DNA of 44,433 nt from a virus, in the IMG/VR virus record IMGVR_UViG_3300042861_000451, positions 1-44,433 of that record. One strand, 5' to 3'. The first letter of the stretch is position 1. Each line of letters opens with the position of its first letter. Shown here piece after piece: positions 14,126 through 44,433 of the stretch. The position numbers and the translations under genes are program-made. Under the pieces are notes generated by a model that had not been told where the DNA came from, searched no databases, and was given only the letters and a program-made list of their open reading frames with translations.

Positions 14126-14147
14126 CTTCTAATTAACCAGATAAATA

Positions 14148-15149: not shown

Positions 15150-15159
15150 TTAGTTAAAA

Positions 15160-16463: not shown

Positions 16464-16466
16464 ACA

Positions 16467-17263: not shown

Positions 17264-17279
17264 TAATTAACTAATATTG

Positions 17280-17310: not shown

Positions 17311-17317
17311 CCATACT

Positions 17318-18764: not shown

Positions 18765-18765
18765 T

Positions 18766-19214: not shown

Positions 19215-19219
19215 TACAT

Positions 19220-21597: not shown

Positions 21598-21599
21598 TT

Positions 21600-23649: not shown

Positions 23650-23660
23650 CATTTTAAACA

Positions 23661-24242
23661 ATGAACATTGAGAATGTATATGGGAAGTATTTTCAGAAGA
23701 GTAAGCTCTTCTTATATCCCTTATTGAAGATACGACAAGGTATAAGTATAGTTCCTGTTCAAACATATATGCGGTGGTTAGATGTATATGAGCTTGGAGA
23801 TTGCAAGCTTGTATGCGTTTACCATAAGAGAAGTGATGATGAGTATAAAAGATTTGAAGAAAAATATCTTTTATCTAATCCGTTGTTTTATGACTACTTC
23901 TTATTACCAGATAATATGGTAGCATATGTGTTTGATTTTTCAGAACATATCCATGACTATTATAAAGTAGCACATGGTAAGTACTCAGAGCTATCAAGCA
24001 ATTTTAAATTTAAAGTAATTAATTTCTTTTCATCAAACCCAATACATTCAGCATATGTAGATAGTTATCTTTATCCAAATAAACATTTTGATCTCTATTC
24101 AGAACTATTAAACTGTAATATAGAGTTACTAATGGAAGTAGGAGAGCTATGTAGCATGCCTGATATTGATCAGGAAACTTTGCTATCTAAACCTATTCTT
24201 TTGGAGATAGAAGATAATTCTTTACATTTGTTAAAACAATAA
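23661..24242 (+). CDS. conserved hypothetical protein, 193 aa
   Basis: The protein is aromatic-rich (many Tyr and Phe) and alpha/beta, with stretches such as KLFLYPLLKIRQG and MPDIDQETLLSKPIL. From memory, similar proteins occur in the replication cluster of crAss-like and related phages, but the function is unknown. It has an A-rich AACATTTTAAACA leader just ahead of its ATG. It is followed 10 bases later by another conserved gene of unknown function. Confidence 0.65.
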   Translation: MNIENVYGKYFQKSKLFLYPLLKIRQGISIVPVQTYMRWLDVYELGDCKLVCVYHKRSDDEYKRFEEKYLLSNPLFYDYFLLPDNMVAYVFDFSEHIHDYYKVAHGKYSELSSNFKFKVINFFSSNPIHSAYVDSYLYPNKHFDLYSELLNCNIELLMEVGELCSMPDIDQETLLSKPILLEIEDNSLHLLKQ

Positions 24243-24252
24243 AAATAATTTT

Positions 24253-24687
24253 ATGGATTACGGAAAAAACATGCTCGTTGTGAGCAACTACTGGGGTGAG
24301 GCAAAAAGTTTTAAGCTTATTCCAGTTAGTAATGATTGTCCTTACGCAGAAGCATTGTATGATATCAATACAGGACTCTTAGCAGTTATTGGTAAAGTAC
24401 AAAAACAAGTATTTCATAATGTACCTAAGTTAGATGACAATGGTGACATGATGTACTTGAAGATGGGTAAAAGAGAAAATGGTAAGACCTATAAAGAAGA
24501 GCGTCGTACTATTGATACTTTCCAAGAATACTATATCATTGATGAAAAAGAAATCATTGATTTTGTAAATGACTTTGGTGTAAATTCAAAAGACTTTCCA
24601 TTTATTCAGTACATTGAAGCAGCGCGCAAAGATGTATCACAGATGGTTGTTTCAGATAAGCCATCTATTGCAGAGATAGAAAAGTAA
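24253..24687 (+). CDS. conserved hypothetical protein, 144 aa
   Basis: The sequence opens MDYGKNMLVVSNYWGEAKSF and contains PYAEALYDINTGLLAVIGK and an acidic DEKEIIDFVNDF helix. I recall this type from crAss-like phages, where it sits next to the 193-aa neighbour gene. It is soluble and mainly beta in the first half, helical near the end. A strong terminator follows 22 bases after its stop. Function unknown. Confidence 0.68.
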   Translation: MDYGKNMLVVSNYWGEAKSFKLIPVSNDCPYAEALYDINTGLLAVIGKVQKQVFHNVPKLDDNGDMMYLKMGKRENGKTYKEERRTIDTFQEYYIIDEKEIIDFVNDFGVNSKDFPFIQYIEAARKDVSQMVVSDKPSIAEIEK

Positions 24688-24709
24688 TCAATAGATTACA
24701 ATATAATTG

Positions 24710-24737
24710 AAGGAGGGTAAGCAGCCCTCCTTTTTTT
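24710..24737 (+). terminator. rho-independent terminator before the PolB block
   Basis: AAGGAGGG at 24710-24717 pairs with CCCTCCTT at 24725-24732 around a 7-base loop, followed by a T-run at 24731-24737. It separates the middle replication genes from the polymerase block. Confidence 0.88.
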
Positions 24738-24776
24738 GCCAACTAAAATGGGGGAACAGCTTAACTGAACTGTAGT

Positions 24777-25127
24777 ATGATAACAGAAAGAAAATATAAG
24801 AATGCTTTAGCTGTAGTTGAGCAGTATAGACTACAACAATCAGAATTACAAAGAGCTAAATTAAGTAATGCTGATATTACATTGTCTACTACCTTAGAAG
24901 AAGTGTATGATAAAAAACTTATCACAAGTAAGCTTGCACATGTATTACTTACATATCATAAACACTATGTACTAGTAGGTGATAATAATCCACCAACATT
25001 AGAATTTTTTACTGGTATACGTGTAACTGGTATTCAATGCTGGAGTGGTGTAGGTAAAAAAACTTTGAAAGAGTTTATAGATTTAATGGCTGCTGTAGGC
25101 CATGCTGTTGAAGGTACTTATATATGA
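24777..25127 (+). CDS. alpha-CTD-like helix-hairpin-helix protein, 116 aa
   Basis: The C-terminal 35 residues, with TGIRVTGIQCWSGVGKKTLKEF and IDLMAAVG, resemble the RNA polymerase alpha C-terminal domain, which has a short helix, a GKKSL-type turn and a helix that contacts DNA minor grooves. The rest is helical and unrecognised. It begins 39 bases after a terminator and overlaps the DNA polymerase gene by 4 bases. It could be a DNA-binding replication factor rather than a transcription factor. Confidence 0.5.
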   Translation: MITERKYKNALAVVEQYRLQQSELQRAKLSNADITLSTTLEEVYDKKLITSKLAHVLLTYHKHYVLVGDNNPPTLEFFTGIRVTGIQCWSGVGKKTLKEFIDLMAAVGHAVEGTYI

Positions 25128-27115
25128 GAACCCATTATGTACATGATTACGAGACAATGAGATCTTGTTTCGTAGCAGTGTTTGAAGATTATAAAGAAGA
25201 TGACACTAAGGTATTTATCATAAGTAAATTTAAGAATGATATATTTGAATTATTAGAATTCTTAAAGGACAATATGAAATATGACCAGTGGCATATAAGC
25301 TATAATGGTTTAAACTTCGATAGTCAGATAACACAATACATACTATTAAACGCACGTGAACTTGCATTTCTAGAGGGTGAAGTAATTGCTGGTATGTTAT
25401 ATTCTGTAGCGCAGGATACTATAAGACGTAAAGACATGGGTGAATTCCTAGAGTATAGTCCTAAAGATTTACTGATAAAACAGATAGATGTATTTAGATT
25501 AAACCATTGGGATAATAAAGCCAAGCTCAGCAGTCTTAAGTGGATACAGTATAGCATGGACTGGGATAATATAGTAGATATGCCGTTACATCATACGCAT
25601 AAGATATCTTCTGTAGAGGAGCAAGATATGGTTGTACAGTATTGTATAAACGATGTAAGGAGTACTAAAGAAATAATGAAGCGTAGTACAGAACAAATAA
25701 GATTACGCAAAACATTATCAGAAGAGTATAAGATAGATCTATACAGCGCATCAGAAACTAAGATCAGTAAGGAGCTATTCTTAATGTTCTTAAGTCAGAA
25801 GACAGGTATCAAGAAGTATGATCTCAAAAAGATGCGTACTATGCGTGACCGTATATTAGTCAAGGATTTGTTACTATCATACATATCCTTCAAGCGTCCT
25901 GAATTTCAACAGCTACATGAAGCTTTCAAACGTCTTACTGTCTATCCTGAGAACACCAAGGGCGCATTCACTCACAAAGTAAAGTACAAAGGAGTAGAGA
26001 CTGACTATGCGTTAGGTGGTCTACATGGTGCTAGAAAAGCTGGTATCTATGAAGCTAAAGATGGTATGATAATTATGACGTCTGACGTTACTAGTTTCTA
26101 CCCTAACCTAGCTATTAGGAATAAGTGGGCACCAGCTCATCTACCTAAAGAAACATTTTGTGAACAGTATGAGTGGTTCTTTAATGAAAGAAAGAAGATA
26201 CCTAAGAAAGATCCAAAGAATTATGTATATAAGATCATTCTTAATGCTACCTATGGGCTCAGTAATGAGAAGGACAGCTTCCTATATGATCCAGAGCTTA
26301 CTATGCGTATTACCATTAATGGTCAACTATCTCTTACTATGCTATATGAAATGCTAGCAGAAGGTATACCAGGAGCTATCCCGCTAATGCAGAATACAGA
26401 TGGTCTAGAGATGATGATCCCAGAGCAGTTCAAAGATAAATATCTAGAGATCTGTGCAGAGTGGGAACAGATTACTAATCTAAATCTAGAGCACGATGAG
26501 TATCAGAAGATGATCATAGGTGATGTAAATAATTATATTGCTGTTAACAACTATAAGGAGATCAGTAAAGAGGAATATGATAAGTATAGTACTAATCACC
26601 ATAACCTAATCAAGGAAGAAGGAGGTAAGTATTATCATGCACCTGTAAAGTGTAAAGGTAGATTTGAATTTCAAGATCTTCCACTACATAAAAACAAAAG
26701 TCATCTTATAGTACGTAAAGCAATCTATCATTATTTCTTAAACAATGTGCATCCTGAAGAGTATCTTAAAAACAATAGGAGCATACTAGACTATTGTGCA
26801 GGTGTAAAGATTAAAGGTAACTGGGAGTTTATAGAACATGCAGTACAAGATCAGGAAGCAGTGAAGATTCCTCTACAGAAAACAATAAGGTATTTTATAT
26901 CCAAGAAAGGATCTAAGATCATAAAGACTAATAAGTCTGATGGTAGAGAAATTCAGCTAGAAACTGGTAGATGGATGCAGTCCATATTCAACAAGATAGA
27001 AGATAAAGAATGGGATGAGTATGATGTAAATGATCAGTATTATCTAGAATGTATACGTAAAGAGCAGATGAACATTGTTCCTCACTTATTTGAAACACAA
27101 TTAAAAATATTTTAA
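25124..27115 (+). CDS. family B DNA polymerase
   Basis: The 663-aa protein has an N-terminal 3'-5' exonuclease domain with D8-x-E10 (HDYET), N61 and D66 (YNGLNFD), and Y173-x3-D177 (QYCINDV). The polymerase domain has motif A DVTSFYP (321-327), motif B K370-x3-N374-x2-Y377-G378 (YKIILNATYG), and motif C QNTDG (423-427) with catalytic D426. The first Asp of the usual DTDS motif is Asn here. Its size fits the compact crAss-like PolB group. It is the likely replicative polymerase, starting in the 4-base overlap with the alpha-CTD-like gene. Confidence 0.95.
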   Translation: MRTHYVHDYETMRSCFVAVFEDYKEDDTKVFIISKFKNDIFELLEFLKDNMKYDQWHISYNGLNFDSQITQYILLNARELAFLEGEVIAGMLYSVAQDTIRRKDMGEFLEYSPKDLLIKQIDVFRLNHWDNKAKLSSLKWIQYSMDWDNIVDMPLHHTHKISSVEEQDMVVQYCINDVRSTKEIMKRSTEQIRLRKTLSEEYKIDLYSASETKISKELFLMFLSQKTGIKKYDLKKMRTMRDRILVKDLLLSYISFKRPEFQQLHEAFKRLTVYPENTKGAFTHKVKYKGVETDYALGGLHGARKAGIYEAKDGMIIMTSDVTSFYPNLAIRNKWAPAHLPKETFCEQYEWFFNERKKIPKKDPKNYVYKIILNATYGLSNEKDSFLYDPELTMRITINGQLSLTMLYEMLAEGIPGAIPLMQNTDGLEMMIPEQFKDKYLEICAEWEQITNLNLEHDEYQKMIIGDVNNYIAVNNYKEISKEEYDKYSTNHHNLIKEEGGKYYHAPVKCKGRFEFQDLPLHKNKSHLIVRKAIYHYFLNNVHPEEYLKNNRSILDYCAGVKIKGNWEFIEHAVQDQEAVKIPLQKTIRYFISKKGSKIIKTNKSDGREIQLETGRWMQSIFNKIEDKEWDEYDVNDQYYLECIRKEQMNIVPHLFETQLKIF

Positions 27116-27116
27116 A

Positions 27117-28424
27117 ATGTCAAAAACAACAAAAGTAGTAACAGCAGGGGAGTTAAGATTAACAACTCTGCCAAGAAAAACAGAAACCTATACAGTAATT
27201 TCTCATGGTTTCATTATTGATACAGTAAAAGCTATGCTATCTGCTAAAGGCTTTGAAGTAGTTGTAGAAGAGTATCGTGCTAATAATAACCTAGAAGTTG
27301 CACGCGGTAGTTATATTATTAAAAGATCAGAAGATCCAACATTCTTAATGTCGTTTAACTGGGTTAACTCATATGATAAATCAACTAAGTTCCAATGTGC
27401 TATTGGTGGTTATGTATGGGAGAACAACTCTTATGTTATAGACAAAGAAGACAACACCTTTATTCGTAAGCATACAGGTGATGCAGATACACTAGCAAAG
27501 GAAACTATTGAAGAGAAGATTAATAACGCAGAAGGTTACTATCTAAAAGTTCTGAATGCTAAACAAAAGATGCAGAGCATAACTGTTAACCGCCAACAAG
27601 TAGCTAAGATGCTAGGTGAGCTTTATTTTAGTTATGATATGATTTCTATTGAGCAGCTTAGTGGAATTAAGAAAGAGTATAATAAACCAAGTTATGTTTA
27701 TTCTACTAATTCTGATAGCTTGTGGACTGTATACTGCCACATGCTTACGGTAATTAAATCTTCACATCCTAAGCAATGGTTACATCAGCAAGGTTTCATT
27801 CATAACTATATCAAGATGAACTTTCTTATGTTTGCTGATCCTATTATCACTGATGTACCAACTCCTCTTATGGAGGCTTTGCTTGCAGCACCAATGATTG
27901 CAGTAGACCCAGCTCAAACTAATATCTTAGATCAAATAGCAGATTTAGAAGCAGATCAAATTGATGAAGATATTAGATATGCTGAAGCAGAAGAAGAATC
28001 TTTACTAGCAGTACAATATCCTGTTACTGAAGAGGAAGCTTTCACACCTACTGATGAATTACTTGAATATACTGATCCACTAGGAGTAACGTTTGAAGCA
28101 CCTGTGGTAGAGGAGAAAGAACATGTGTCTCTTGATCAAGTAGTAAGATGGTTAAATGAAGATCAACCAGCTACTATAGAAGAAGAGTTTACTAAAGAAG
28201 AAATTGAAGAAGTAGAAGAAGCTAGAGCGCTTTATGAAAACAATGAAGAAAGCTTAACAGTATCTGATCCTAAAGTCATTTCTGTACTACAAAATGAAGT
28301 AAACAATATCTTTGGATATGATGTTGAGATTGAGATTTATGAAGATGGAGAAAACTACAACATCGTTACTAATGATGGACAAGAAGTAGTAGTACCAATT
28401 GATTATGTAAACAATTTAATTTAA
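27117..28424 (+). CDS. DUF932-like phage protein with acidic C-terminus, 435 aa
   Basis: The N-terminal 250 residues follow the DUF932 pattern: ISHGFIIDTVKAML near the start, then FNWVNSYDKSTKFQCAIGG, IRKHTGDADT, and SDSLWTVYCHMLTVIKS. The function of DUF932 proteins, common in phages and plasmids, is unknown. From about residue 265 the protein is strongly acidic and Glu-rich, ending in a small beta-like part (IEIYEDGENYNIVTNDG). It begins one base after the polymerase stop, with an A-rich leader. The match is from memory, so moderate confidence. Confidence 0.5.
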   Translation: MSKTTKVVTAGELRLTTLPRKTETYTVISHGFIIDTVKAMLSAKGFEVVVEEYRANNNLEVARGSYIIKRSEDPTFLMSFNWVNSYDKSTKFQCAIGGYVWENNSYVIDKEDNTFIRKHTGDADTLAKETIEEKINNAEGYYLKVLNAKQKMQSITVNRQQVAKMLGELYFSYDMISIEQLSGIKKEYNKPSYVYSTNSDSLWTVYCHMLTVIKSSHPKQWLHQQGFIHNYIKMNFLMFADPIITDVPTPLMEALLAAPMIAVDPAQTNILDQIADLEADQIDEDIRYAEAEEESLLAVQYPVTEEEAFTPTDELLEYTDPLGVTFEAPVVEEKEHVSLDQVVRWLNEDQPATIEEEFTKEEIEEVEEARALYENNEESLTVSDPKVISVLQNEVNNIFGYDVEIEIYEDGENYNIVTNDGQEVVVPIDYVNNLI

Positions 28425-28426
28425 TT

Positions 28427-28804
28427 ATGAAAAAGCAATTAAATGCAGTAGAAAGATTCCATGAAGCATTTGGACAGAAAAATGCTAAATGGCCTCAGCA
28501 TATAGCACTTGAAGAGTTTGAACTCAGACATAAGCTAATGGCTGAAGAAAATGATGAATACCTAGAAGCTTGTGATGCTAATGATATAGTTGGTATTGCT
28601 GATGCACTAGGTGATCAGATGTACATATTATGTGGTACAATACTTAAGCATGGATTGCAACACATAATTGAAGACATATTTGATGAAATCCAGTCAAGTA
28701 ATATGAGCAAGCTAGGTAAAGATGGCAAACCAATATTACGTGAAGATGGTAAGATACTTAAAGGACCATCTTACTTCAAACCTGATCTTAGTAAGTTCTT
28801 ATGA
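28427..28804 (+). CDS. MazG-like nucleotide pyrophosphohydrolase, 125 aa
   Basis: The helical protein shows the MazG/PRA-PH pattern: E40/E41-x2-E44 in MAEENDEYLEA and D59-x3-D63 in IADALGDQMYILCG, with a GPSYFKPDL end seen in phage members. Such enzymes hydrolyse NTPs or dNTPs to monophosphates, clearing abnormal nucleotides or altering (p)ppGpp signals. The UDG in the same block fits a nucleotide-hygiene role. It overlaps the next gene by 4 bases. Confidence 0.8.
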   Translation: MKKQLNAVERFHEAFGQKNAKWPQHIALEEFELRHKLMAEENDEYLEACDANDIVGIADALGDQMYILCGTILKHGLQHIIEDIFDEIQSSNMSKLGKDGKPILREDGKILKGPSYFKPDLSKFL

Positions 28805-32000: not shown

Positions 32001-34680
32001 GTGTATCCATGATTTCTTGAATGCGCGCAAATATTTCTTGACGTCTTGTATACCAGGATGGTTTTATAACAACACGTGTATTTCTTCTAATCCATTCATC
32101 TCTAAGAGTCTTGTACTCTAGGGAACCTTTATCATACTTACCAGCTATTTCATCTTCATAGTTAGATAAAATCTTCTGGAATACCCCTGGTCTTTCTTTC
32201 CACTCATAAAACTGACGTGATTGATCACGATATTCTCTTAGACGTTGAGCTATAAGATAATCATTGCCTTGTTTTAGTTCACCATATAAATCAGTTAATG
32301 AATGCAATTGTCTGTATTCACGCCATAAAGCGTCAATTTGATTTGCAATATCTAACTGATCACTTTCAGAAGTTGCAGTTGCATTTACCTTACGTATCTT
32401 TTCTATAATAGAATCACGCATATGTGATGCAACTACACCAATTGAATCTCTTTCTAAAAGTTGTTGTCTTTCATAGAATGCAGGTTTGTATTCTTGATGG
32501 AAGTATTTACGTAGAAACTCTTTACGTTTTGCAACAACATCTCTTAACTTAACTAATGATGCGTCTGTACCTGTTGTAGAGAATTCAGTCTCTGCAGCAT
32601 CTACTTCATCATTCATAAGTCTTAAGTCATGACGATAGTTCTTAAATGGATTTAAAAACGTCCATACTTTCTTCTTAACTTTCTTACCTTCCTCTTCTAT
32701 AAGGAGAGTATCTTCAAATAGAACCTTATCTCCTAGCTCAGCAATGTTACGGAAATTAAATCCATAATCTTTGATGAGACCCATTATATCATTGTTGAAG
32801 TCATTAAGCTTTGCTTGTGCATTAACCATAACTTCATTCATTCTATTCTTTACATATAATGCTAGACCTCCAACTATAGGATCGTTATTATACATATATC
32901 CTTCTAGGAATCCATTGAACCAGTTAGCATCACCTAGCTGACCTTTCATAAGGTCTTCTATTTTTTCAGGTGTTATTTCAAGTCCTTGTGCAGCACTGAC
33001 TCTTAAGTTTGCATACTCAAGCTTTTCAGCATTGGACATGTATTCTTTCTTTCTTACCTTCTCACGCAGCTCATTATATCTAGCATACTCAGCTTGTGGT
33101 AACCCATAGTATTCAGTATGCCATCTATCTATTACTCTTTGAGGAGCATTCTTACTTTTTAGGTTTTCAATTATTTCTGTATATCTTTCTTTTACATCTC
33201 TGCTTATAGGTTCAAACTCTGCATACAATGTATCTCTTGCACCATTAGCATATACCTCATCTGTAATCTTTTCTATCTTTTTAAAGTTAGCAGTAATAGC
33301 ACTAACTGTTTGAAAGATTTTTGAATTAGCAGGTACACCAGATCCAGGCTCATTAAATGCTTGCTCTACCTGAGATATGTATTTAACCCAATAGTCAGTA
33401 AGCTTTCTGTAATAAGAAATCTTTTGCAAGTTAGCTTGAGAATCACCATTCTTATAAAGATCTTCCATGTGTGCAAGTATCTTGCGAATAACAGTGTCAA
33501 TATTATAAATTGTACTTACCATACTACTAGCTTGTGATTCTAATAGCTCCATGGCTTGTATCTCATTGGTAATGATATTATCTATTTGATCTTTATGTTT
33601 TGATAAATCAGTCATAATAGTTTCCATATGTGGAACTCTATACTGATCTTTCAATATGCTTGCTAATTCTTTATACTTACCGTTATTTTTTAATTCGTTA
33701 AGTTGCTGAGCTGCAAGAACATAACCCTCTTTAATTAAAGCTTGTAATTCTGTTTTGTCAATGTTCTTCATATCTTTAATCTCATCTTCATAAGATGTAA
33801 GATATGCTACCACGTCTTCTTCAGTAATAAGTTCTGTATCAATTTTAAACTTATCATTTGTTAGCATAGTTGCTAGCTCATCTAGAGTAGTAGTTGGGTC
33901 AAGCTTAGATACTTCTATTTGTCCAAATGCGTTTCTAAATAATTTCTTAAGTGCATAAAGAATATCCTTAATAAATTTAGCAAAACCAGGAGATACTTCT
34001 TGCTTAAGAGCAGCTGCTTCTAATGCCTTTACAAGAACTTCTTCTTGAAACATTTGACCATTTAATTCTACAGCTGAAGTTTGTCTAAGCTCTTCAACTA
34101 TCTTTAATCCTTCAGGTGTGTTAACTAAATCATTATATAGTTTGTTAAATAAAGTAGAATTATCTACTTGTATTTGACGTACTAGTGGATGAGAGAATTC
34201 ATGAAGTACTGAATTAATTGAAAGTGATTCACCTACAAAAAATACTTTACCACCATAATAGAAAGCAGCTTGTCCTGACCATGGATTCTTAGTGTTTGCT
34301 GTTAATTCTGTAGCTCTTTCAGCTGGAATAATTTCAAAGTCAACTCCTAATCCAAGTGATAATTTTCTAGCAATCTCATAAGCTCTAGTTGTCTTGCTTT
34401 GCTGAACCATCTTTTCAGTCATTGCTGACATGTCATTTTCAGCTGCATGAAATAGAGATAAAGATGTTTCACTAACTACACCAGACATTAAACCTTCTGT
34501 ATGAGGTTGTTTTTTAGCAGTTTCTCTTGCTTCTACCCTCTTATTAATTTTATCTTGAACTTCTTCTGGAGTTCTAATTTGATATCCAGATTCAACATAA
34601 TCTTTATACGCCTCAAATCTACCTACTGTAGCTTCAAGGGCTTTCCATTCATCTAAATTAATATTAGGGCAAACACTCAT
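29059..34680 (-). CDS. giant virion/ejection protein with zincin motif, 1873 aa
   Basis: The 1873-aa protein carries a zincin motif HEFSH (160-164) in a FVGESLSINSVLHEFSH context, with Glu 213/214 (MFQEEVLVKALE) as a possible third metal ligand. Long charged helical stretches follow, likely coiled coils (about 290-1060). Near the end, about residues 1704-1719, lies a membrane segment (IVGLIAFAIAISLLFGW). By size and position next to the RNA polymerase, it fits the giant packaged proteins of crAss-like phages. The single base between its ATG and the upstream stop implies coupled translation. The peptidase could mature virion proteins or act in the host after entry. Function inferred. Confidence 0.75.
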   Translation of the reverse strand: MSVCPNINLDEWKALEATVGRFEAYKDYVESGYQIRTPEEVQDKINKRVEARETAKKQPHTEGLMSGVVSETSLSLFHAAENDMSAMTEKMVQQSKTTRAYEIARKLSLGLGVDFEIIPAERATELTANTKNPWSGQAAFYYGGKVFFVGESLSINSVLHEFSHPLVRQIQVDNSTLFNKLYNDLVNTPEGLKIVEELRQTSAVELNGQMFQEEVLVKALEAAALKQEVSPGFAKFIKDILYALKKLFRNAFGQIEVSKLDPTTTLDELATMLTNDKFKIDTELITEEDVVAYLTSYEDEIKDMKNIDKTELQALIKEGYVLAAQQLNELKNNGKYKELASILKDQYRVPHMETIMTDLSKHKDQIDNIITNEIQAMELLESQASSMVSTIYNIDTVIRKILAHMEDLYKNGDSQANLQKISYYRKLTDYWVKYISQVEQAFNEPGSGVPANSKIFQTVSAITANFKKIEKITDEVYANGARDTLYAEFEPISRDVKERYTEIIENLKSKNAPQRVIDRWHTEYYGLPQAEYARYNELREKVRKKEYMSNAEKLEYANLRVSAAQGLEITPEKIEDLMKGQLGDANWFNGFLEGYMYNNDPIVGGLALYVKNRMNEVMVNAQAKLNDFNNDIMGLIKDYGFNFRNIAELGDKVLFEDTLLIEEEGKKVKKKVWTFLNPFKNYRHDLRLMNDEVDAAETEFSTTGTDASLVKLRDVVAKRKEFLRKYFHQEYKPAFYERQQLLERDSIGVVASHMRDSIIEKIRKVNATATSESDQLDIANQIDALWREYRQLHSLTDLYGELKQGNDYLIAQRLREYRDQSRQFYEWKERPGVFQKILSNYEDEIAGKYDKGSLEYKTLRDEWIRRNTRVVIKPSWYTRRQEIFARIQEIMDTLPDTAAKNIDLAPLHQAIIDIKSGFRDEDGQPNPSEMTPEAIAKVKQLEEEIALRKKQYKNLSGLTGVQQARLTELYNIRDSRSLTAAEQSELNSLYAEKQRGSLSKFQRSELDGLYQELESMSSTDATGYYVDIVNNFLQNLNTDLLYKMTGSRIITETTAQNLLDPQVIDDLKKQSAEFTRWFDKNHIQDEFKGEPKYKRISVWSVVRPSDTNDYEQTEIKDAKGKVTDIIAGLPSMKFYRQDVRLDYKTDQIVGKTIDNKGNWLPKTLEDGAADDRYINKDYFDIKEKDPKLFEILEKLKDWHLKSQTNLDNNSKLYLDSPRFTKEKGAVLGLGLERIQSTKIDELGHKKWNGITSWAKGVKEFFKGTRDQAESGFNYNNQVNMVKLDIFDDEVTRIPISGLYNLDSEDVSKDIVTSMMRYMYSAERQKALVKTAPLAKAIQKIVNDPNNTADLEKINKSNFINRQVVTYKKKKGLSVRAQNINAFIEREFEGVKMKGAGADSVWLNNVSKALFSRASFQFFALNIPSALKNHYGAKFQTMIESAAGTYINPITAGKGELWATKAMGDLSFGGNLYAKGPKSLTQQIVEIFDPSQGRFQEKFGRSMTRTGTKDVVEGTWLYSTRKWLELQAVLQTFGGMMYHKTIDRTMPDGTVQKIPYIEAFELDESKKIQLKSGIDPKYGFTTKEDGSIELGREFNHFKNKMQQVMNALNGAYSEFDQPEAQRYILFRFVSYLRRYFTPMLVNRWGFKGPLWAPQPRLNPGLGDAHMGYYIRTLQVLKNTIREGDFTLKYATAEEKAAFMRTTAEIVGLIAFAIAISLLFGWDPDDDDRYDKLRAQSGPLDFFGVEDDPNRPFNLPGFMNVHTLNLLMQVQAENEQFIPIPGVGLDNYLELLDIKSIAFGPTMDSYSGILDDFIHIMKNDDQAYYTRDTGPYWFQQKGGSKLTAKLAKLLGFTGSSLDGAMAIQKFSNAQAMARR

Positions 34681-34681: not shown

Positions 34682-37600
34682 TTATGCTATATTAAAACAT
34701 CTATTCATCATATCCATGTACTCTTGGTCACTAACAGGTTGTTTAACAACTCTGATAACTTCCTTGACACCTTCAGATTCAGTTACAAAGTTAGGATTAA
34801 TATAGCCAAATTCCTCAAGTAAACGTGTAGATAAATATCTAAATGTTTCAGGAGCTTGAGCTATTCCTATTTTTTTACCTTGTTCATCAAAGAACATCTT
34901 ACCAGTTTCATCATTAGCACCAATCATATACTGACCATAACCTGCTTTACTAAATACTGGCTTAAGTCCTGAATCATCACGCTTTTTAATAACAGCTTCT
35001 ATAGATGAATCAATCTGATATTTGATATAAGGATCAACAATTGGTGCACCAGTTTCTGCATCAACTCCATCTTTTATAAATTCTTGCATTGAACCACCAC
35101 CATATTTTAATCTAGTAAGGATGCCTATCTTATTTTGATAACCTGCATGATGAATAAATCTATCTCTAACATCTACATTACCTGTTGATTTTGGTAATGG
35201 TGTAGCTGATAAACGAGTTGCAGCTACAGATATACCTCCATCTTCAGCTTCATTATATACAAGGAAGAAGTTCTTCTCATCTACATTAAATGATTCCTCT
35301 TCTTCTTGTTCTCCTGTATACTGCTCTTGTAGAGGTTTAAAAGTAAGATCTGCCTCATCATATACATACAGCTCTGATTTAATGTAGTTTCCTTCTCCAG
35401 GTACTTTAACATCTACAACAGATCCTGGTCTAATAATTCCATTAATTGCCATTTGTGATGCATCCTGTAGAGAGTTAGCTATATAAGGAGCTTTTATTCT
35501 ATCTGATCTAAAGTCACCAATAACATTGTTTGAGCTTTTGTTAGGCAAGTACTTATTTAATTTTTCAATATAGCTAGCATCTATTTTACCATCAGAAAAA
35601 ATAATTACATTAGCATTCTTTACAACATTATCCGCATTAGTCCATTCAAGTTTAAGTCTGTACTTAGGCATATTACTGCTATACTCAAGTCTACCAGCAT
35701 TTTGAATAGTATCAAATCCTAGTGGTTCCATCTCAACAACTTCAGCAGTAACTACTCTTTGACCAGCATCAAAGGACATTGTATAAGCAACCTTGTCACC
35801 TACTTGTGTAGCTTTAATATCATAAGTTCCAGGCTCACCTTCTGATATGCTGTTTAGATATCTAAGTGTATCTTTAGATATATTAATTGAAGTAGTTACT
35901 AAATCAACAGATGCAATGTTACCTGTAGGAGTTTGCCATTGAGCTAAGCTACCATCAATCTTGTATTGAAAAATATGTGTCCCTTTTTGACCATCTTTTT
36001 TTGTAACCTCAACTTCAACAACTACTCTACCATTTTCAAAATACATCTTTTGAATAACACCATCTAGCTTAATAGCTTTCTTATTGAAGTTAGTAGTCAA
36101 GTTTACTTTATCTCCTATTCTAGCATAAGCCAAAACTGGAACACCTTCATCATTAATAAATTGAGGATCATATGGTCTACTAAATCCAAGTGATGACTTA
36201 TCTGTTTGAACAAATAATGCATTAGAAAGATCTGTTGTAGCATTTCCTTCCTTGTCAGTTTTGATCATATAGTTTTTACCACGAGCATCATATCTTTTAT
36301 TAGCAGCAACAAATGCATTCCAATAGTTATTCAAAGTGCTATAAACATTTGAAGCAGCTTCAGAAGATATTTTATTTATAAATTCATCACCTGCTTGTTT
36401 TGTCATTGTAAGTACCACGTTCTGATCTACTATACGTGTAATAGCAAATTTACCTGAGCCATTCATTCCAGACTGTAGGAATGCTACTATAGGTAGTTTT
36501 CTAAATACAGTAGCAATATCATTCAACTCATCTCTTGTAAGAGACGGCATAGCTTTGGCTAGCAATACTTCATTTGATAAAACTTGTACTTGTTCATAAT
36601 AAGAATCACGAGTTTGTTTATCACTAGGAGTATTTACATAAGCTAAGTTAACACGTGTCTTATCTGATGATTTAGCATTTTCTGAATCAGGAACTAGATT
36701 CGCTAATACAGAGAATGCTTGAGTAAGACCTTCATACTTTTTAATTCTAGCGATTTCATATGCATATGCTGTTTCATTATTAAACATAGCATACATGTTA
36801 TCAACATTCTGAAGAGCTTTATTTCTAATGTACATTTCAAAAGCTGCTTTCAATCTATACTTTTTCCACTCTGCTCTACCTTTAGAATCTAATTTAGTTT
36901 CACCTTCATTAATAAATTCTGATCTATCTACAGTATTAACAGTAGCTAGAAGTAATGATTTAAATTCTGGATCTTCTTGAAGTCTATTAAGATCTTTTTT
37001 ACTACCTGTACCAATGTATTGTGCTCTTATGTATTCACGTTCAAATACAAATTTCACATACTCACCAAATGTAGTAAAGGTTTCTGTAGATTGTACTGGA
37101 GATAAGCCAGCATCTGAATACACCCCACCTTTGTCAACAAATTCTTTGTTATTAAATTGTCTGTATAATGTATCATAATCAAAATACATTATTCCATCTT
37201 GCATTATAGCTCCCATCATTGGTAATGCTACAACTTTATTTAGTCTAACTTCTTCACCTCTGTAATACATAGGTCTATCATTAGCTTCTAGTAAAGCTTT
37301 AACATCCATTCCTAAATATGAATTCTGGAATATTGCTGGTACGAGCGATGACTTAAATCCTGACATTAAATCAACATCAGTTTTTAAATATGTACTAGAC
37401 TTAGCTTCATCTTTTGAAGCAAAATCCTTATCAATCATGTACTTATTAATAACAGGATTGTTATTCAATGGGAATAAATCTTTCCATATTTCTAATTGGA
37501 AAGGTTGTTGGTAGAAGCTTGCTAATACAGATGCATTAGCTGCTGTTTCATCAAGCAATCCTGTATCATTACCTTCAGAATCTTTAAGCGTAGGAATCAT

Positions 37601-40600
37601 TCTTTCAATTACCTGTGAAGGTAATCTCCAGTACTGTGTCTGTGAATTTTTAACATCGTCAGTTCTGCTACGTTTAATTTCTTGTAACTGAATGATTTTG
37701 TTTTGTGCTTCATATAGACTACCTGACTTAGCTGTATCAACGTTAGTTCTTAACTTAACATCTTTAAGAGCTGATTCCATATCAGTAATCTGAAGGAAGT
37801 GAAGTAGTACTGATTTTTGATAATCAGCTAATTCAGGATCAGAAAAGTCTACTTCGCTTCTTCTTTTATATTCACCATTTGCAAGAAACTCAGCCATAGG
37901 ATACTTATCATAAGTATAATCCAACTGACTTCTAAGATCATCTTCTGTAAACTCTTCATTTTCAGGAGTTGCTAAAACACTTTCTCTAGCAATTACTTTC
38001 TTAAGATTTCTTACTCTATCCGCGCTAGTCTTACCTTCTACTTTAATGCCTAATTTCTCAAGCATTATTTCTTTAGCTGCAAGAACTGCCTTATCTCTAG
38101 TTATTTTTTCTTCAGTTGTAGTAGCAGTATCATTAACTATAGATGCATATGTACTTTGTAACTTGTCTATTGTTTGCATATACTCAACAATAACAGGTTG
38201 ACTTACCATAAGTGCAGCATGTCTAACTGGTACACCAGCTTGAATTAAGAACAATAGAATAGGTCCCAATTTTTCATCACCACGTAAATAGAATATCCAT
38301 GGATCTTTAGCAATATCTACCCAACCATTCATTAACTGGTTAATGACGTCACCAATTTTGTGTTCTCCATTAACATCCATTAAGTGGCTAAAAGAAATTG
38401 CCTTGTCCTTATAAGCTTCACCTTGAAGATCTTTAACTTTAAGTTGATTATGTGGTAGATACAATGTTTGTCTTTCAAAATCTTCTACAAGCTTTTGATC
38501 TTCAGAAGTAAATTCTTTTCTTGCTGCGGTCCATGCTTGCTTTTCTTCTTTTGTTCTTGCATCTCCTTTAGCTTCTTTAATTTTATCTTGTTTATAAAAC
38601 TCTTTAGCATTGTCAAGCAATTTTTTTATATCATCAGATTCCATTCCTTTAAGAAGCTCTCTGTTGTTTGGTACTAAATACATACCTACTCTGTTGAATA
38701 GTTCATTGTATGTGTTGTCAATAGCACCAATACCTAAAGCTTTCTTACCATAGTTATTAGTCATCTGCTTGTAAAGGTTGTATCCTATTTCATAGATGCG
38801 ACTTGCTTGTATTCCTTTACCAGGAGCTTTTTCATCATTTGTAGATATTTGTGGATTATACTCACGATATAATCCTTTTAACTCATCTACTATAGGATCT
38901 AAGATATCTGTACCATTAGGACGTACTAAGTTTGAATAGTTAAGTACGTTACTTGATAAAGTATTCATTGCAAACAACACATCATTTTGTGCTGTCTTTT
39001 CTTGATCAGCTAAGATAAATTCCTCTAGAGTAAGTAATTCGCCTTCTTCTAAAGCCATTTCAATTACTGAAGATAGAACCTGTTCTTGTCCACCAAATAA
39101 TGTATAGTGTAACTCAAGTGCTCTTACCTTGTCTCTTTTACTTTGATATTGTGACGTTAAAGATTTTTCAGCATAAGCTTTTTTGTATTGCTCATATCTA
39201 GTAAAGTAATCAGCTTCTGTTAAAGGAGTATATAGACCTACTGTATGGGTAGTAACTCCATCTACTGTTTTAGTTGACATACCAATGTTAGGGAACATCA
39301 TTGTCAACTTATCAATATCAAAGTCACCTCCTGACTTAGCTACAATCTCTGCAGGAAGAATGATAATGTTACCTTCTTCTTTAGGAAGGAATTCATATAC
39401 TTCAGCAAATTCATCTGAGTTCATACCTTGAATAGGAATACGATCACCATGTGTAGTAATCATTTTTCTATTATCTCCTTTATCCAACCATGCATCATCT
39501 TTAATCAACATGTTTAGATTGTTTAAAGAAGCATTGTAGTCAAGCTCTTGTACAGGTTTACCATTTCTAGTAACTACCTTACCGTTTTCCATTGTGTCTT
39601 TGAAAACAGCAACGTCATCTAAATAAAGAAGCTTTTCAAAATCACCTTGCATGGAAATCTTGATCTTCATTGGTTTGATAAACTTACCTGTTGGATCTAT
39701 TGAATAATATGTTAATCCATTTGTACCATACTTTTGTAATATTTCTTTAGTAGGTAGTTTAAACTGAGGCTCTAGCATAGCGCTAGCCACTTGGATTAAT
39801 GGTTCACCATTTACAGTTTGTTTAATCAAAGATTTAACTACAAGAGCATTAAGTAATCTTTCAATCTTTTCAGATGCAAATGAATATGAAAGGTCATTTA
39901 AAAGTTTACCTTCTTTATCTACATCTAAGAAATCAATTTCATGTTCTGCCAACTCTTGTGTTGTTAGCTGACTCTTTACATAATTGATAAGGTTCTCTAC
40001 ATTACTTATTAGTTTACCATCTTTATCAAATCTAAGCTTAGCTTTCTTGATAAGTTGCGCCTTCTTAATAATAGTAAGCTTGTATACAGCCTTCTCATAT
40101 TCTAGTGCTTGGCGATAGTTTTTAGAATTGTCAAGTTTTTCATTTTCAGAAAGACTAAACCAGCTATCTATTCTATTTTCAATGCTTTCTCCTACTTTAT
40201 AATCTGTAGGAATACCATTTTCAAATAAGTCAACTTCAATCAACTTACGTATCTGTGTAGCAAACGTTACTTTACCTTTCCATTTAGGCTCTATATTTAA
40301 CTGATTCTTAAGATACTCTATGTTGATGATGTTCTTAGTAAATGGTACATCTGTTATATCACGATCAGAATTATAAACATCATCACTAATAGATGCAATG
40401 TTTAGTTTATCACTGTATCCTTTATCTGTTGATTTTACAACTTTACCATTTGCATCTACTCTTAGTGGTTTACCTTCTGAATCAAACTGTACAGAAGTAA
40501 GTGTACCAACCTTAGATCCTGATCTGAAAGTAACATAGTCCATACCTTCAGCCATCATCTTTTCATTTAACTTATTAAGTTTAGGGCTTATTTTAGTTAA

Positions 40601-43600
40601 ACTAGGAACAATAGGAGTAAGCTGAAATTTATGGAATGCCATAATAGATACGTCATCTGTCAAAGGATTACCTTGTTTGCTTGTATCTAATGTACCCCAG
40701 TATTGTGCTTTTATAGGAGGAAAGAATGTACCAACTTTATCACCAGGTATTTCTTTACCAGCTAACATTGCTTGATACATATTTTCTTGAGCAGGAGACC
40801 AGTTACCTTGTGACTCAGCTAGTATTCTATAAGAATCAAATCCAATCCATCCTTGACCATCAGCTTCTTCCATTTTATTGTACTTAGCCATGATAGATTT
40901 ACCTGATGGCTCCATACCTTTAAGAGCTTCAAGACTTGATGCATCAATATCTTTGTTGCCAAACAACTTAATCTTGATTTCATTTTCAATCTCATTTTCA
41001 GATCTTCTCTTAGCAGTAGGTAATGAATTGTTAGCTCTTACCGCTTTAGCTTTCATTTGATTATATAAACCAAATGCAATCTCTTCTAAGTAAACACTAC
41101 GTGTAATCTTTTCTTTCATCACCCCAACATTGAAAGTACCATCATACTCTCTCATTGGTTTATCTGTAAACTGTTGTTCAAATCCTCTTTTAAGGGTATT
41201 GTTTACATAGAACAACATGTCTTTATCTACACGATATCCTGTACCAGTAGATCCTATACCAGCATTACGCTTATGGAATTCTTCTTTAGCATGATTATAC
41301 AAAGCTATATCACCATATAATGCATTCATAGATTCAATATTATGAATCCATCCATTGTACACCCATGAATTCAGTAAAGCATTAACAACATCGTTATCTG
41401 ACATAGTAGTTCCAACTGAACTTTTATCATAGTCGTTATAATCTTTTCTAAACTTGTTTGCATGGTTGTCTCCTACAAAAGCACCATTTTGATTATATAA
41501 AGCTTTAACATCAAGGAATTGATTCTTAAAGTAGTTTTCAGTTTCTTTAAGTAATGTATTTATTAAAGCTTGTGCTTTAGGATTTGTTTTATCATTAAGA
41601 TATGTTTCAAGATCTTCTGTAAGGTTAAACAGTTCCTTTTTAGTTTTTTCATTTAAGATACCTTCAAAGGACAAAAACTTCTGACCTTCTGCCAAGTAAT
41701 TAAAATCAAATACTGGAGTAGGAGTTATTTGTTTACCTTCTTTCTTTTCTTTAGCAATTTGCTTAAGAGTATCTTCAATTTGTTGTTTCTTAACTTTAAA
41801 TCTTTGTACACGATTGTGTTCAGAGATTATGTTAGGTAGTATATAATTTTGAAAAGCAGTTGCATGGAAGTCATTTCTTGAATCACCAAAATGATGATTA
41901 GCAATATACATTCCTTTTGTAGTTTCATTTAGAATATCAGGAGATGTGATATAGTTAAGAGCAACAGCATATGACGTGCTCTTATCAGAGTGACGCATAA
42001 GTTCAGGTAAACCTGCTTGTGTAGCTAAGTGTAAATCTAAAATGAATTTAGTAAATGGATCTGCTGATGCTGAAGATACACCATCAAGGTCAGAACTTTT
42101 AGCTCCACTGATATCAAACAATTCTAACTTAACTTGTCTACCACCTGTTGCTGTCTTTCTTGTTCCCCATTTTTCATCTCCTCTAGGTACATCAAGATTA
42201 AACATGTTTCTTAACCAAACATATCTTTTAGCATTAGGATTTTTGTCAATGTCAAAATGAGACATGTGACGCATATCAATAAGCTTTTGGTATGCAGAGC
42301 TCTCTTCATCATCTTGAACTTCATTAAACGAACTTACCATGATAGACATGGTACTGTTTAATGACATTTCAAATTTAGTATTACCATCAGCTGTAGTAAC
42401 CATAAAGCTAGGAACACCTGAACCTAATTGACCTTCTACTGTTTGAAGCTCATTCCAGTTTTGTTTTTCACCAGCTAGTCCTGAGATATATACGTTTCTT
42501 AGTTCACCACCTTCTTTTGTTTGACCACCAATAAGTTGACCTTTAACTTCTGAAAAAATATCTTCAGGTTTAGTTATTATGATACCATTCTTTAAAATGA
42601 TCTCAAGAAGTGAATAACCTTTTGTATTATTTGGATCTAATAAACCACCGCTTTTATCAGTATTAAGGGTATCTTTTAATAGATCTGATTTTCTAGGAGC
42701 ATACAAAGTACTAATAACATGAAATTCAGGACGGTTAGCTAATTCAACATTACCATTCTCTAATGCATCTCTTGTTTCAGCATTATCCGTCATCTTAATT
42801 CCAATAGCATTTAAGAACTTAAATACTTTATCAACATCCCATTTTCCTTTTGCTTTAAAAGAATCACTGCTTGGGTAGTCTTTAAGAAGTCTTTTAACAT
42901 CTAAGTATGTAATACCATTCTCTGTATCAAATACTGTATAGTCATTCTTTTCAAATTGGAAACTTGTGTTCCATCCTTTACCTACTTTAGCATATGGGTT
43001 AATTGCTCTACCTATAGTAGAAATAGTATTGCCATCTTCTATTCTGATATTTTGTGATATTAACCCAACACGACGCATGTTAAATACCTGATAGAAGCTA
43101 CTCCATAAGTTTTCAACTTGTCTATTAGCTATGTGCCTAAACTTACCTGCTAATCCTCTAGGTCCTAACTTATTTATTAATTGACCTACAGCCATTGTTA
43201 ATTCAGTAGGATCTTCTTGTTGAGCAAATGCAAGAAGTTTTTCATACATCTTAATGATGTCACGTTCATTCTCTAATATAACTGCAACTTTACCCCATAC
43301 TGTTTCTGAATCCATAAGAACAGGTGCACCCATTTCATTTAAAATAGGCATGCGTGTTTTAGGATCCATCTTAAACAATGTCTTGAATAAGAATTTTACA
43401 TCAGGTTTAGCAAGATCTTTTTGTGATATTGCAGCTCCATCTTTTGAACCAATTGAACCATCTCTAGTTATTGACTCTTGTTCTTCTGTCTCTAAAAGTT
43501 CTGATGCTTTGATTCCAAAGTCATCTGACTTAGCCATGTGATAAGCCATAACACCTCTAAGCTTACCATCTTTATCTGGTTTATTATTAGCTATGTTAGT

Positions 43601-44433
43601 TAGATCACCAAAGTTATTTCTTGTAAAAGCAATTAAAGAAAGCTTGTTAGCAAGATCCTGAAGCTTAGTAGAGCTTGGATCCTTTTCTCTAATGCTGTGA
43701 TACTCATCATCTAGTTCTAATTCAAGGTTACTTAAGATATCATAAATTCTTCTATATGCAATCTCTCTACCTTGTTTAGTTTTAAGGAAGCTAGCAGAAT
43801 GGGTATAAGTTAAGCGTGAAGCCATCTTTAATTTCTCTTTCTCCATTTTTTCAGGAGAAACGCGATTCATAAAGAGATCAATCTGCTTCTTAATAAATTT
43901 CTCGTATTGCGCTGGATTTTCTATACCTGCATTAGCTGAATCAATAGACTGTGCTATCCATCCATCTATTGAGTCCATGATAAGCTTAGTATCAGTATTG
44001 TTTAGATTTAAAAGATTTGCATCTTCTTGAACAGCTTGTATACCATTCTTATCTAAACTATTGAATCTTACATTGGTTTTATTAAAATTGTAATCACTAA
44101 GATCTCCTACACGAAGTTTTTCATAGATCTCATTTATCTTACTGTTTGCTTTAAAGTCAGCGGTAACTTCTTGTATAGTCAGATTACCAAAGATTGCTTC
44201 TAAAATATTAAGTAACTTTCTAAAGAATGAATTACGTTTAGGAGCTGATTTAATGATTGACTTACCATTAGAAAGCATATACTTTCTAAAGTCTTCAGCT
44301 AGGTACTCTTCTACTTGTTTGTCATTAGCATATTTAAATGCTGTTGCTTTACCTTCAAAGTCAACAAATGTACCTGCCATCTTACGTACTTCATCATAAA
44401 GTTCTTTACGTTGTGCAGGTGACATAAATGCTT
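34682..44433 (-). CDS. giant virion RNA polymerase polyprotein, partial at 5' end
   Basis: The frame is open to the window edge, with its first in-frame Met at 44425, so the real protein is longer than 3247 aa. Counting from that Met, DFDID lies at residues 1701-1705 (coding bases 39311-39325, in AKSGGDFDIDKLTMMF). This is the active-site loop of crAss-like phage RNA polymerases, where the Asp residues bind the catalytic Mg. In phage phi14:2 the homologue (about 2180 aa) is packaged in the virion and transcribes early genes. Here the polymerase is fused to long extra regions. The visible N-terminus (LAEDFRKYML, RKLLNILEAIFGN) recalls the end of a zincin-like domain. The protein is followed by the 1873-aa gene. 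Confidence 0.88.
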   Translation of the reverse strand, partial: AFMSPAQRKELYDEVRKMAGTFVDFEGKATAFKYANDKQVEEYLAEDFRKYMLSNGKSIIKSAPKRNSFFRKLLNILEAIFGNLTIQEVTADFKANSKINEIYEKLRVGDLSDYNFNKTNVRFNSLDKNGIQAVQEDANLLNLNNTDTKLIMDSIDGWIAQSIDSANAGIENPAQYEKFIKKQIDLFMNRVSPEKMEKEKLKMASRLTYTHSASFLKTKQGREIAYRRIYDILSNLELELDDEYHSIREKDPSSTKLQDLANKLSLIAFTRNNFGDLTNIANNKPDKDGKLRGVMAYHMAKSDDFGIKASELLETEEQESITRDGSIGSKDGAAISQKDLAKPDVKFLFKTLFKMDPKTRMPILNEMGAPVLMDSETVWGKVAVILENERDIIKMYEKLLAFAQQEDPTELTMAVGQLINKLGPRGLAGKFRHIANRQVENLWSSFYQVFNMRRVGLISQNIRIEDGNTISTIGRAINPYAKVGKGWNTSFQFEKNDYTVFDTENGITYLDVKRLLKDYPSSDSFKAKGKWDVDKVFKFLNAIGIKMTDNAETRDALENGNVELANRPEFHVISTLYAPRKSDLLKDTLNTDKSGGLLDPNNTKGYSLLEIILKNGIIITKPEDIFSEVKGQLIGGQTKEGGELRNVYISGLAGEKQNWNELQTVEGQLGSGVPSFMVTTADGNTKFEMSLNSTMSIMVSSFNEVQDDEESSAYQKLIDMRHMSHFDIDKNPNAKRYVWLRNMFNLDVPRGDEKWGTRKTATGGRQVKLELFDISGAKSSDLDGVSSASADPFTKFILDLHLATQAGLPELMRHSDKSTSYAVALNYITSPDILNETTKGMYIANHHFGDSRNDFHATAFQNYILPNIISEHNRVQRFKVKKQQIEDTLKQIAKEKKEGKQITPTPVFDFNYLAEGQKFLSFEGILNEKTKKELFNLTEDLETYLNDKTNPKAQALINTLLKETENYFKNQFLDVKALYNQNGAFVGDNHANKFRKDYNDYDKSSVGTTMSDNDVVNALLNSWVYNGWIHNIESMNALYGDIALYNHAKEEFHKRNAGIGSTGTGYRVDKDMLFYVNNTLKRGFEQQFTDKPMREYDGTFNVGVMKEKITRSVYLEEIAFGLYNQMKAKAVRANNSLPTAKRRSENEIENEIKIKLFGNKDIDASSLEALKGMEPSGKSIMAKYNKMEEADGQGWIGFDSYRILAESQGNWSPAQENMYQAMLAGKEIPGDKVGTFFPPIKAQYWGTLDTSKQGNPLTDDVSIMAFHKFQLTPIVPSLTKISPKLNKLNEKMMAEGMDYVTFRSGSKVGTLTSVQFDSEGKPLRVDANGKVVKSTDKGYSDKLNIASISDDVYNSDRDITDVPFTKNIINIEYLKNQLNIEPKWKGKVTFATQIRKLIEVDLFENGIPTDYKVGESIENRIDSWFSLSENEKLDNSKNYRQALEYEKAVYKLTIIKKAQLIKKAKLRFDKDGKLISNVENLINYVKSQLTTQELAEHEIDFLDVDKEGKLLNDLSYSFASEKIERLLNALVVKSLIKQTVNGEPLIQVASAMLEPQFKLPTKEILQKYGTNGLTYYSIDPTGKFIKPMKIKISMQGDFEKLLYLDDVAVFKDTMENGKVVTRNGKPVQELDYNASLNNLNMLIKDDAWLDKGDNRKMITTHGDRIPIQGMNSDEFAEVYEFLPKEEGNIIILPAEIVAKSGGDFDIDKLTMMFPNIGMSTKTVDGVTTHTVGLYTPLTEADYFTRYEQYKKAYAEKSLTSQYQSKRDKVRALELHYTLFGGQEQVLSSVIEMALEEGELLTLEEFILADQEKTAQNDVLFAMNTLSSNVLNYSNLVRPNGTDILDPIVDELKGLYREYNPQISTNDEKAPGKGIQASRIYEIGYNLYKQMTNNYGKKALGIGAIDNTYNELFNRVGMYLVPNNRELLKGMESDDIKKLLDNAKEFYKQDKIKEAKGDARTKEEKQAWTAARKEFTSEDQKLVEDFERQTLYLPHNQLKVKDLQGEAYKDKAISFSHLMDVNGEHKIGDVINQLMNGWVDIAKDPWIFYLRGDEKLGPILLFLIQAGVPVRHAALMVSQPVIVEYMQTIDKLQSTYASIVNDTATTTEEKITRDKAVLAAKEIMLEKLGIKVEGKTSADRVRNLKKVIARESVLATPENEEFTEDDLRSQLDYTYDKYPMAEFLANGEYKRRSEVDFSDPELADYQKSVLLHFLQITDMESALKDVKLRTNVDTAKSGSLYEAQNKIIQLQEIKRSRTDDVKNSQTQYWRLPSQVIERMIPTLKDSEGNDTGLLDETAANASVLASFYQQPFQLEIWKDLFPLNNNPVINKYMIDKDFASKDEAKSSTYLKTDVDLMSGFKSSLVPAIFQNSYLGMDVKALLEANDRPMYYRGEEVRLNKVVALPMMGAIMQDGIMYFDYDTLYRQFNNKEFVDKGGVYSDAGLSPVQSTETFTTFGEYVKFVFEREYIRAQYIGTGSKKDLNRLQEDPEFKSLLLATVNTVDRSEFINEGETKLDSKGRAEWKKYRLKAAFEMYIRNKALQNVDNMYAMFNNETAYAYEIARIKKYEGLTQAFSVLANLVPDSENAKSSDKTRVNLAYVNTPSDKQTRDSYYEQVQVLSNEVLLAKAMPSLTRDELNDIATVFRKLPIVAFLQSGMNGSGKFAITRIVDQNVVLTMTKQAGDEFINKISSEAASNVYSTLNNYWNAFVAANKRYDARGKNYMIKTDKEGNATTDLSNALFVQTDKSSLGFSRPYDPQFINDEGVPVLAYARIGDKVNLTTNFNKKAIKLDGVIQKMYFENGRVVVEVEVTKKDGQKGTHIFQYKIDGSLAQWQTPTGNIASVDLVTTSINISKDTLRYLNSISEGEPGTYDIKATQVGDKVAYTMSFDAGQRVVTAEVVEMEPLGFDTIQNAGRLEYSSNMPKYRLKLEWTNADNVVKNANVIIFSDGKIDASYIEKLNKYLPNKSSNNVIGDFRSDRIKAPYIANSLQDASQMAINGIIRPGSVVDVKVPGEGNYIKSELYVYDEADLTFKPLQEQYTGEQEEEESFNVDEKNFFLVYNEAEDGGISVAATRLSATPLPKSTGNVDVRDRFIHHAGYQNKIGILTRLKYGGGSMQEFIKDGVDAETGAPIVDPYIKYQIDSSIEAVIKKRDDSGLKPVFSKAGYGQYMIGANDETGKMFFDEQGKKIGIAQAPETFRYLSTRLLEEFGYINPNFVTESEGVKEVIRVVKQPVSDQEYMDMMNRCFNIA

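Follow-up and report, generated by a model that had tools for sequence, protein, structure and literature searches.

A crAss-type virion RNA polymerase gene cut by a contig end, and enzyme modules on the virion RNA polymerases of its relatives

Identification of the virion RNA polymerase

The window, that is, the whole stretch of 44433 bases (44.4 kb) analysed here, which is one complete IMG/VR record, ends inside a giant gene that very probably encodes the virion RNA polymerase (RNAP) of an environmental crAss-like phage, a member of the phi14:2 gp66 family. The more interesting point is the modules carried on such virion RNAPs, mostly outside the window: in the relatives, exchangeable modules (NADAR, AlkB-like oxygenase, SF1 helicase, kinase) form part of the RNAP gene and often precede a C-terminal tail of ~100 aa that the window also has, which is a new observation.

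The gene is represented by an uninterrupted minus-strand frame of 3249 codons, open at its 5' end and closed by a single TAA stop (Table 1). The initial annotation, which gave no strand, had correctly noticed that this frame leaves the window and contains the motif DFDID, located at residues 1703–1707 of the open frame or 1701–1705 counted from the first in-window ATG, from which 3247 aa would be translated. The 5' end of the gene is lost because the record stops inside it. The whole gene is present in a 58 kb sibling contig, IMGVR_UViG_3300032234_000118; its product of 4376 aa is 51% identical to the window protein across all 3249 residues, and the frame is likewise uninterrupted in the standard code. 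The first residue of the window protein corresponds to residue 1161 of the sibling. Since the record comprises only 44433 bases and the sibling gene extends 1160 residues further upstream, the first in-window methionine is not the true start.

Table 1. Features of the RNAP gene and its neighbours in the window. Residue numbers refer to the open RNAP frame.
Feature	Position	Strand	Remarks
RNAP giant ORF	34682..44431	-	3249 residues present; the complete sibling protein has 4376 aa
Putative zincin-like domain, C-terminal part (residues 1-110)	44102..44431	-	Third-ligand Glu inside; HExxH of the sibling 4 residues outside
Invariant third-ligand Glu, E42	44306-44308	-	HExxH and downstream E invariant in 55 sequences
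gp66-homologous region (residues 303-2252 vs gp66 195-1767)	37676..43525	-	hhalign probability 100, E 1.1e-54
AlphaFold2 model of the RNAP catalytic core (residues 1150-2340)	37412..40984	-	pLDDT 85.3, pTM 0.86
DRIPIQG (residues 1663-1669)	39425..39445	-	Counterpart of the conserved (Y)RIPTQG upstream of the active-site loop; R and P invariant
DFDID catalytic motif (residues 1703-1707)	39311..39325	-	Three Asp invariant
C-terminal extension following the gp66-like polymerase (residues ~2665-3139, inferred border)	35015..36439	-	Variable module slot in relatives
Conserved C-terminal tail of ~100 aa (residues 3140-3245)	34697..35014	-	Tail profile, 98.5 bits
RNAP-associated protein, 1873 aa	29059..34680	-	1 bp past the RNAP stop; homologue of phi-crAss001 gp49
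HEFSH, second HExxH, N-terminus of the RNAP-associated protein	34189..34203	-	Domain weakly resembles the RNAP zincin-like domain
Opposed replication block	9848..28804	+	Several replication genes
Helicase	9848-10951	+	Replication block
DnaB	14148-15149	+	Replication block
Sak4-like	15687-16463	+	Replication block
DnaG-type primase	17318-18331	+	Replication block
Exonuclease	22606-23649	+	Replication block
DNA polymerase	25124-27115	+	Replication block

The crAss-type identity proposed in the initial annotation is borne out by homology at several levels. Profile-profile comparison (hhalign) aligned the window protein with phi14:2 gp66 over 1458 columns (probability 100, E 1.1e-54; Table 1). Pairwise blastp matched it to the RNAPs of cr11_1 (2.6e-14), phi-crAss001 (gp50; 2.4e-14) and phi14:2 (g066; 8.7e-9, with two more co-linear segments). 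A tblastn search with the surroundings of DFDID returned, among the matches listed, crAss-like phages only, many of them annotated as "putative RNA polymerase." Pfam, PHROGs and PDB sequence searches with the window protein found nothing relevant, matches to MAP kinases (E 0.03) being due to chance, and scans of viral contigs, whether run with this protein by itself or with its alignment to the sibling, brought up the sibling as the sole match. The relatives, over 500 in number, were reached only by a profile built from 11 diverse RNAPs.

The catalytic motifs are intact. The DxDxD loop and the conserved residues surrounding it are present, and its three aspartates are invariant in the window protein, 55 IMG/VR sequences and nine annotated crAss RNAPs. 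In the DRIPIQG element, R and P are invariant across 11 crAss RNAPs and are kept in A4 too. The same invariant residues occur in the aligned core of Steigviridae, Intestiviridae and Suoliviridae. An AlphaFold2 model of the core was built from 56 aligned sequences, and its sole PDB match at E <= 0.001 was 6VR4, the phi14:2 virion RNAP (E 1.8e-23, 1216 columns). Judged by this whole-fold match, the region around residue 1700 is predicted to have the phi14:2 RNAP fold with its double-psi beta barrels. The initial annotation had named a lack of these barrels as grounds for rejecting its identification, and the outcome speaks in its favour.

The giant virion RNAPs of the N4 type (Schitoviridae), which descend from T7-like single-subunit enzymes, are of similar size (~3500 aa) and are packaged in virions. 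Such an origin of the window protein has a practically negligible probability and was rejected: the core matches 6VR4 and no T7/N4-like enzyme, the T7-like single-subunit fold was not encountered, the profile match is to gp66, and the DxDxD motif and the crAss-type gene neighbours point the same way.

Size and gene borders

The initial annotation described the protein as a giant fusion with roughly 1500 extra residues on each side of the active site. The polypeptide is indeed longer than the phi14:2 enzyme (3249 residues held versus 2180 aa), but this estimate of the additions does not hold: gp66 itself has 1360 residues ahead of DFDID and about 815 behind it, and residues 303–2252 of the window protein are gp66-like. 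Relative to gp66, the window protein has ~580 more C-terminal residues, including the conserved tail, and ~1270 more N-terminal ones, as reckoned from the sibling. Nor is the size exceptional. Giant RNAPs, reaching ~6000 aa, are an already published hallmark of crAss-like phages, and the ORFs that we measured in six annotated genomes with giant RNAPs span 4070–6386 aa: cr272_1 (6386 aa), cr1_1 (4551 aa), cr52_1 (4464 aa), cr11_1 (4388 aa), Rudgehvirus (4098 aa) and LMMB (4070 aa), the last annotated as "RNAP catalytic subunit/RNAP subunit fusion protein." The RNAP of phi-crAss001 has 2412 aa. Among 39 complete non-redundant environmental ORFs (median 3487, maximum 4643 aa), 34 are longer than 3249 aa. 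The size of the window RNAP is thus ordinary for crAss-like phages.

These homologues also bear on whether the long frame is an artefact, produced by fusion of neighbouring genes through assembly error or readthrough. The truncation of the gene by the contig end and the interrupted or recoded RNAP genes of other crAss groups would be compatible with an artefact, which is nevertheless very improbable: most complete environmental homologues are longer still, and the sibling frame is also uninterrupted. The 51% identity to the sibling, the blastp and profile matches to crAss RNAPs and the confident fold match indicate that the frame did not arise by chance.

Part of the extra N-terminal length reflects a shifted gene border: the zincin-like domain that precedes the polymerase (see below) forms the C-terminus of a separate protein, gp47, in phi-crAss001. 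This domain belongs to the upstream protein in phi-crAss001 and in Intestiviridae examples, and to the RNAP in Suoliviridae and in the clade of the window. Similarly, the gp49-like associated protein is a separate ORF in the window phage and is joined to the RNAP C-terminus in cr11_1. The order of the domains is conserved, and the gene borders move along it.

The known systems differ in detail. phi14:2 gp66 (g066, PDB 6VR4) is co-linear with the window protein over residues 303–2252 and shares DFDID, the fold and the place in the gene order, but its chain lacks an HExxH motif, and a Pfam match to NADAR is absent from its whole genome. In phi-crAss001, gp50 corresponds to the RNAP, gp49 to the associated protein and the C-terminus of gp47 to the zincin-like domain; these are, however, three separate, smaller proteins. 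The Suoliviridae cr52_1, cr1_1 and cr272_1 resemble the window clade in carrying HExxH and RNAP on a single giant ORF, with HExxH 1440–1620 residues ahead of the catalytic motif, followed by an associated protein of 1.6–2.3 kaa; cr272_1 also has NADAR in its RNAP ORF. They form a separate clade, with a core only about 20% identical to that of the window, and no C-terminal tail of the window type was found in them. The annotated RNAP genes of cr272_1 (L012) and cr52_1 (L014) contain 37 in-frame TAG codons each, consistent with TAG recoding, whereas the window RNAP gene contains none.

The N-terminal part in the sibling contig

By comparison with the sibling, the whole window protein would comprise about 4.3–4.4 thousand residues, arranged as an N-terminal region, NADAR, zincin-like domain, gp66-like polymerase of ~2500 residues, variable C-terminal extension and conserved tail. 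Neither HExxH nor NADAR is present in the window itself, as that part is cut off at the contig end. In the sibling, the sequence HEAWH occurs at residues 1152–1156, four residues past the window edge, within a conserved domain related to the C-terminus of phi-crAss001 gp47 (blastp E 3e-4). All 55 aligned sequences have the HExxH motif and, 50 residues further on, an invariant Glu. The presence of this motif and of the downstream Glu ligand in the sibling and relatives suggests a putative zincin-like (gluzincin-like) metallopeptidase. In cr11_1 and LMMB, the gene preceding that of the RNAP bears the annotation of an RNAP-associated protein with a fused zincin protease. No Pfam peptidase match was obtained for the sibling protein, and a model of the domain (pLDDT 66) had no PDB match at E <= 0.001, those obtained being meaningless (estrogen receptor, TM about 0.12). 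The protease domain suggested in the initial annotation is partly recovered: a zincin-like motif lies on the same polypeptide in the sibling, but just outside the window. No evidence was found for ejection functions, which had also been proposed for the extra regions.

In line with the proposal of the initial annotation that added regions must be cut away, the product might be a giant polyprotein, in which the zincin-like domain must cut the N-terminal region, the RNAP core and the C-terminal module apart before transcription. The occurrence of the motif on the same polypeptide, and of another in the adjacent associated protein, is consistent with such autoprocessing, as is the separation of the equivalent domains into gp47, gp50 and gp49 in phi-crAss001 and their fusion in cr11_1 and LMMB; being separate proteins in some lineages, the RNAP-linked domains can work apart. 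The same border shifts suggest equally that an uncut fusion is tolerated. Moreover, HExxH is missing from the phi14:2 enzyme, and gp47 is reported in phi-crAss001 virions, with a listed full-length mass of 262.5 kDa. Obligatory cleavage is possible, but we rate it as less likely than not.

N-terminal to the zincin-like domain, the sibling protein contains a NADAR domain (PF08719, Pfam E 4.9e-13, residues 873–1008). In L019, the nearest other relative, NADAR is also located directly N-terminal to the zincin-like domain (4.2e-11 in the genome search). In the tree, the window groups with L019 and the sibling in a single clade, and by extrapolation from it the window gene itself probably carries NADAR. 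The branching within the clade is not settled by the tree, so the ancestor of the window phage could have split off before NADAR was gained.

NADAR domains within RNAP genes

A search for NADAR (PF08719) in 80 whole records, chosen for having an RNAP gene, gave seven matches, and all seven fall within the RNAP ORF. Six exceed the Pfam cut-off (sibling, L019, L039, L071, L073 and cr272_1), while that in the L089 record is below it. The domain is N-terminal in the sibling, L019 and L089 and C-terminal in L039, L071, L073 and cr272_1. Were their positions random, multiplying the RNAP-ORF fractions would give 1.1e-5; this figure exaggerates the case, since the records were preselected for an RNAP gene and the domains of the sibling and L019 may go back to a single event.

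All seven domains retain the Glu and Lys seven residues apart and the phage-type His, in agreement with the catalytic Glu/Lys and phage-type His residues described for NADARs (PMC11543638, PMC11125620). In these residues they resemble the phage-type NADARs similar to T4 gp30.3. Outside eukaryotic RNA-virus polyproteins, however, viral NADARs are typically standalone according to a survey of NAD/ADP-ribose domains (PMC9503650), whereas all seven crAss-like ones lie inside the virion RNAP ORF. The arrangement also resembles the polyvalent proteins that Iyer and Aravind described from phages and plasmids, which are large, injected and composed of many domains (ART, SLOG and others of this kind), with the difference that the crAss-like carrier is the virion RNA polymerase. 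In the open-licence literature, we found no paper linking NADAR to a crAss-like RNAP, or crAss-like phages to polyvalent proteins.

Variable C-terminal modules and the conserved tail

Pfam scans of parts of the RNAP ORF in 40 relatives revealed recognisable enzymes within the variable part in many of them. Counted over the region from the core to the C-terminus, these were DUF7831 (10/40), SF1 helicase models (9/40), 2OG-Fe(II) oxygenase of the AlkB-like type (7/40), NADAR (3/40), AAA_33 kinase-like (2/40), HD (1/40) and SLOG (1/40), as well as ART-PolyVal (3/40, those displayed falling under Pfam's own cut-off). The C-terminal extension of the window's own RNAP had no Pfam match. In the RNAPs of L019–L098, helicase, AlkB-like oxygenase, kinase, NADAR and ART-type domains follow the core in differing combinations, for example, in the ORFs L025:8295-13043, L024:13409-17941 and L071:13247-17407.

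A tail of ~100 aa is found at or near the extreme C-terminus in 45 of 60 non-redundant relatives, among them some whose inserts differ widely; it was undetected in the other 15, some of which are truncated. In the relatives surveyed, the distance from the zincin-like motif to DFDID is 1401–1743 residues (s.d. 77), and that from DFDID to the tail is 880–2128 residues (s.d. 333). The accessible literature gives no reason for the length variation of crAss RNAPs, and this near-fixed span ahead of the catalytic motif versus the variable span behind it, together with the enzymes recognised in the latter in many relatives, suggests a testable answer.

In a large environmental crAss-like clade, the virion RNAP could double as a delivery vehicle: exchangeable enzymes for counter-defence and nucleic-acid repair (NADAR, AlkB-like oxygenase, SF1 helicase, kinase, and perhaps ADP-ribosyltransferase and SLOG) would be fused to it N-terminally or in the C-terminal slot, often before the tail, which may be a packaging signal, and would protect and repair the injected DNA from the outset. 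The window gene would belong to a subclade with NADAR before the zincin-like domain. We give this proposal, taken as a whole, an even chance. If it is true, the polymerase of these phages brings fused enzymes for counter-defence and repair into the host, and a packaging signal might be traced by way of the conserved tail. A role of the tail as a general cargo tag is unlikely, its profile occurring elsewhere only once upstream of an RNAP and on one short ORF. The former is a weak match (E 9e-9) within the 1611-aa frame of L070 (2 onward), and the latter a separate 432-aa ORF in L037 (14961 onward).

The phi14:2 RNAP is known to be carried inside the virion and to act in early transcription; it reportedly also has a self-inhibiting domain that blocks the cleft. 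By analogy with phi14:2 and phi-crAss001, the window RNAP would be stored in the capsid, leave it partly unfolded together with the DNA and refold inside the host, where it would transcribe the early genes. The attached domains would then arrive in the host along with the DNA, and the spare modules of sister phages, for example, one predicted to take ADP-ribose off DNA, may be injected with the polymerase. The substrates of the zincin-like domain would most likely be a host protein or the injected proteins. NADAR, in those phages that have it, would most likely strip ADP-ribose that host defence had attached to signal nucleotides or to the DNA as it enters. Protection or repair of incoming nucleic acid would be a fitting task for a hydrolase of ADP-ribosylated guanine and for an oxygenase of the alkylation-repair type, as well as for a helicase and a kinase. 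These roles of the attached domains are plausible, with a likelihood close to, or slightly short of, even.

Neighbouring genes and gene order

The gene order in the window matches that of annotated crAss phages, with the RNAP followed by its associated protein and with the replication genes opposed. Structural genes upstream of the RNAP are seen in the sibling only. The layout is that of Crassvirales, in which a giant transcription block adjoins the structural genes and the replication genes, including primase and helicases, run in the opposite direction. Neither the window nor the sibling contig, both of which are fragments, yielded an identifiable gene for terminase, portal or major capsid protein.

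The associated protein is also homologous to the C-terminal half of the fused Intestiviridae RNAPs. Its HEFSH domain aligns with the zincin-like domain of the RNAP in H, E, H and the downstream E, with weak scores (hhalign E 0.0017, probability 15%); this resemblance tells no more than that such a motif occurs repeatedly. Further HExxH motifs are present in the cr1_1 and cr272_1 associated proteins.

Elsewhere in the window, the gene at 12581-13285 reads like a uracil-DNA glycosylase, with GQDPYP recognised by eye and a PHROG match of unknown function. Two pairs of MoxR-like ATPase and VWA-like genes were noted by reading at 3442-5816 and 19220-21597; among them, Pfam backs an AAA_5 ATPase only at 3442-4389. 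Upstream of the RNAP in the sibling contig (G001, 16992-25153), two frames of 1148 and 1580 codons overlap, and the first ATG of the second falls past the end of the first, indicating a frameshift or an alternative start.
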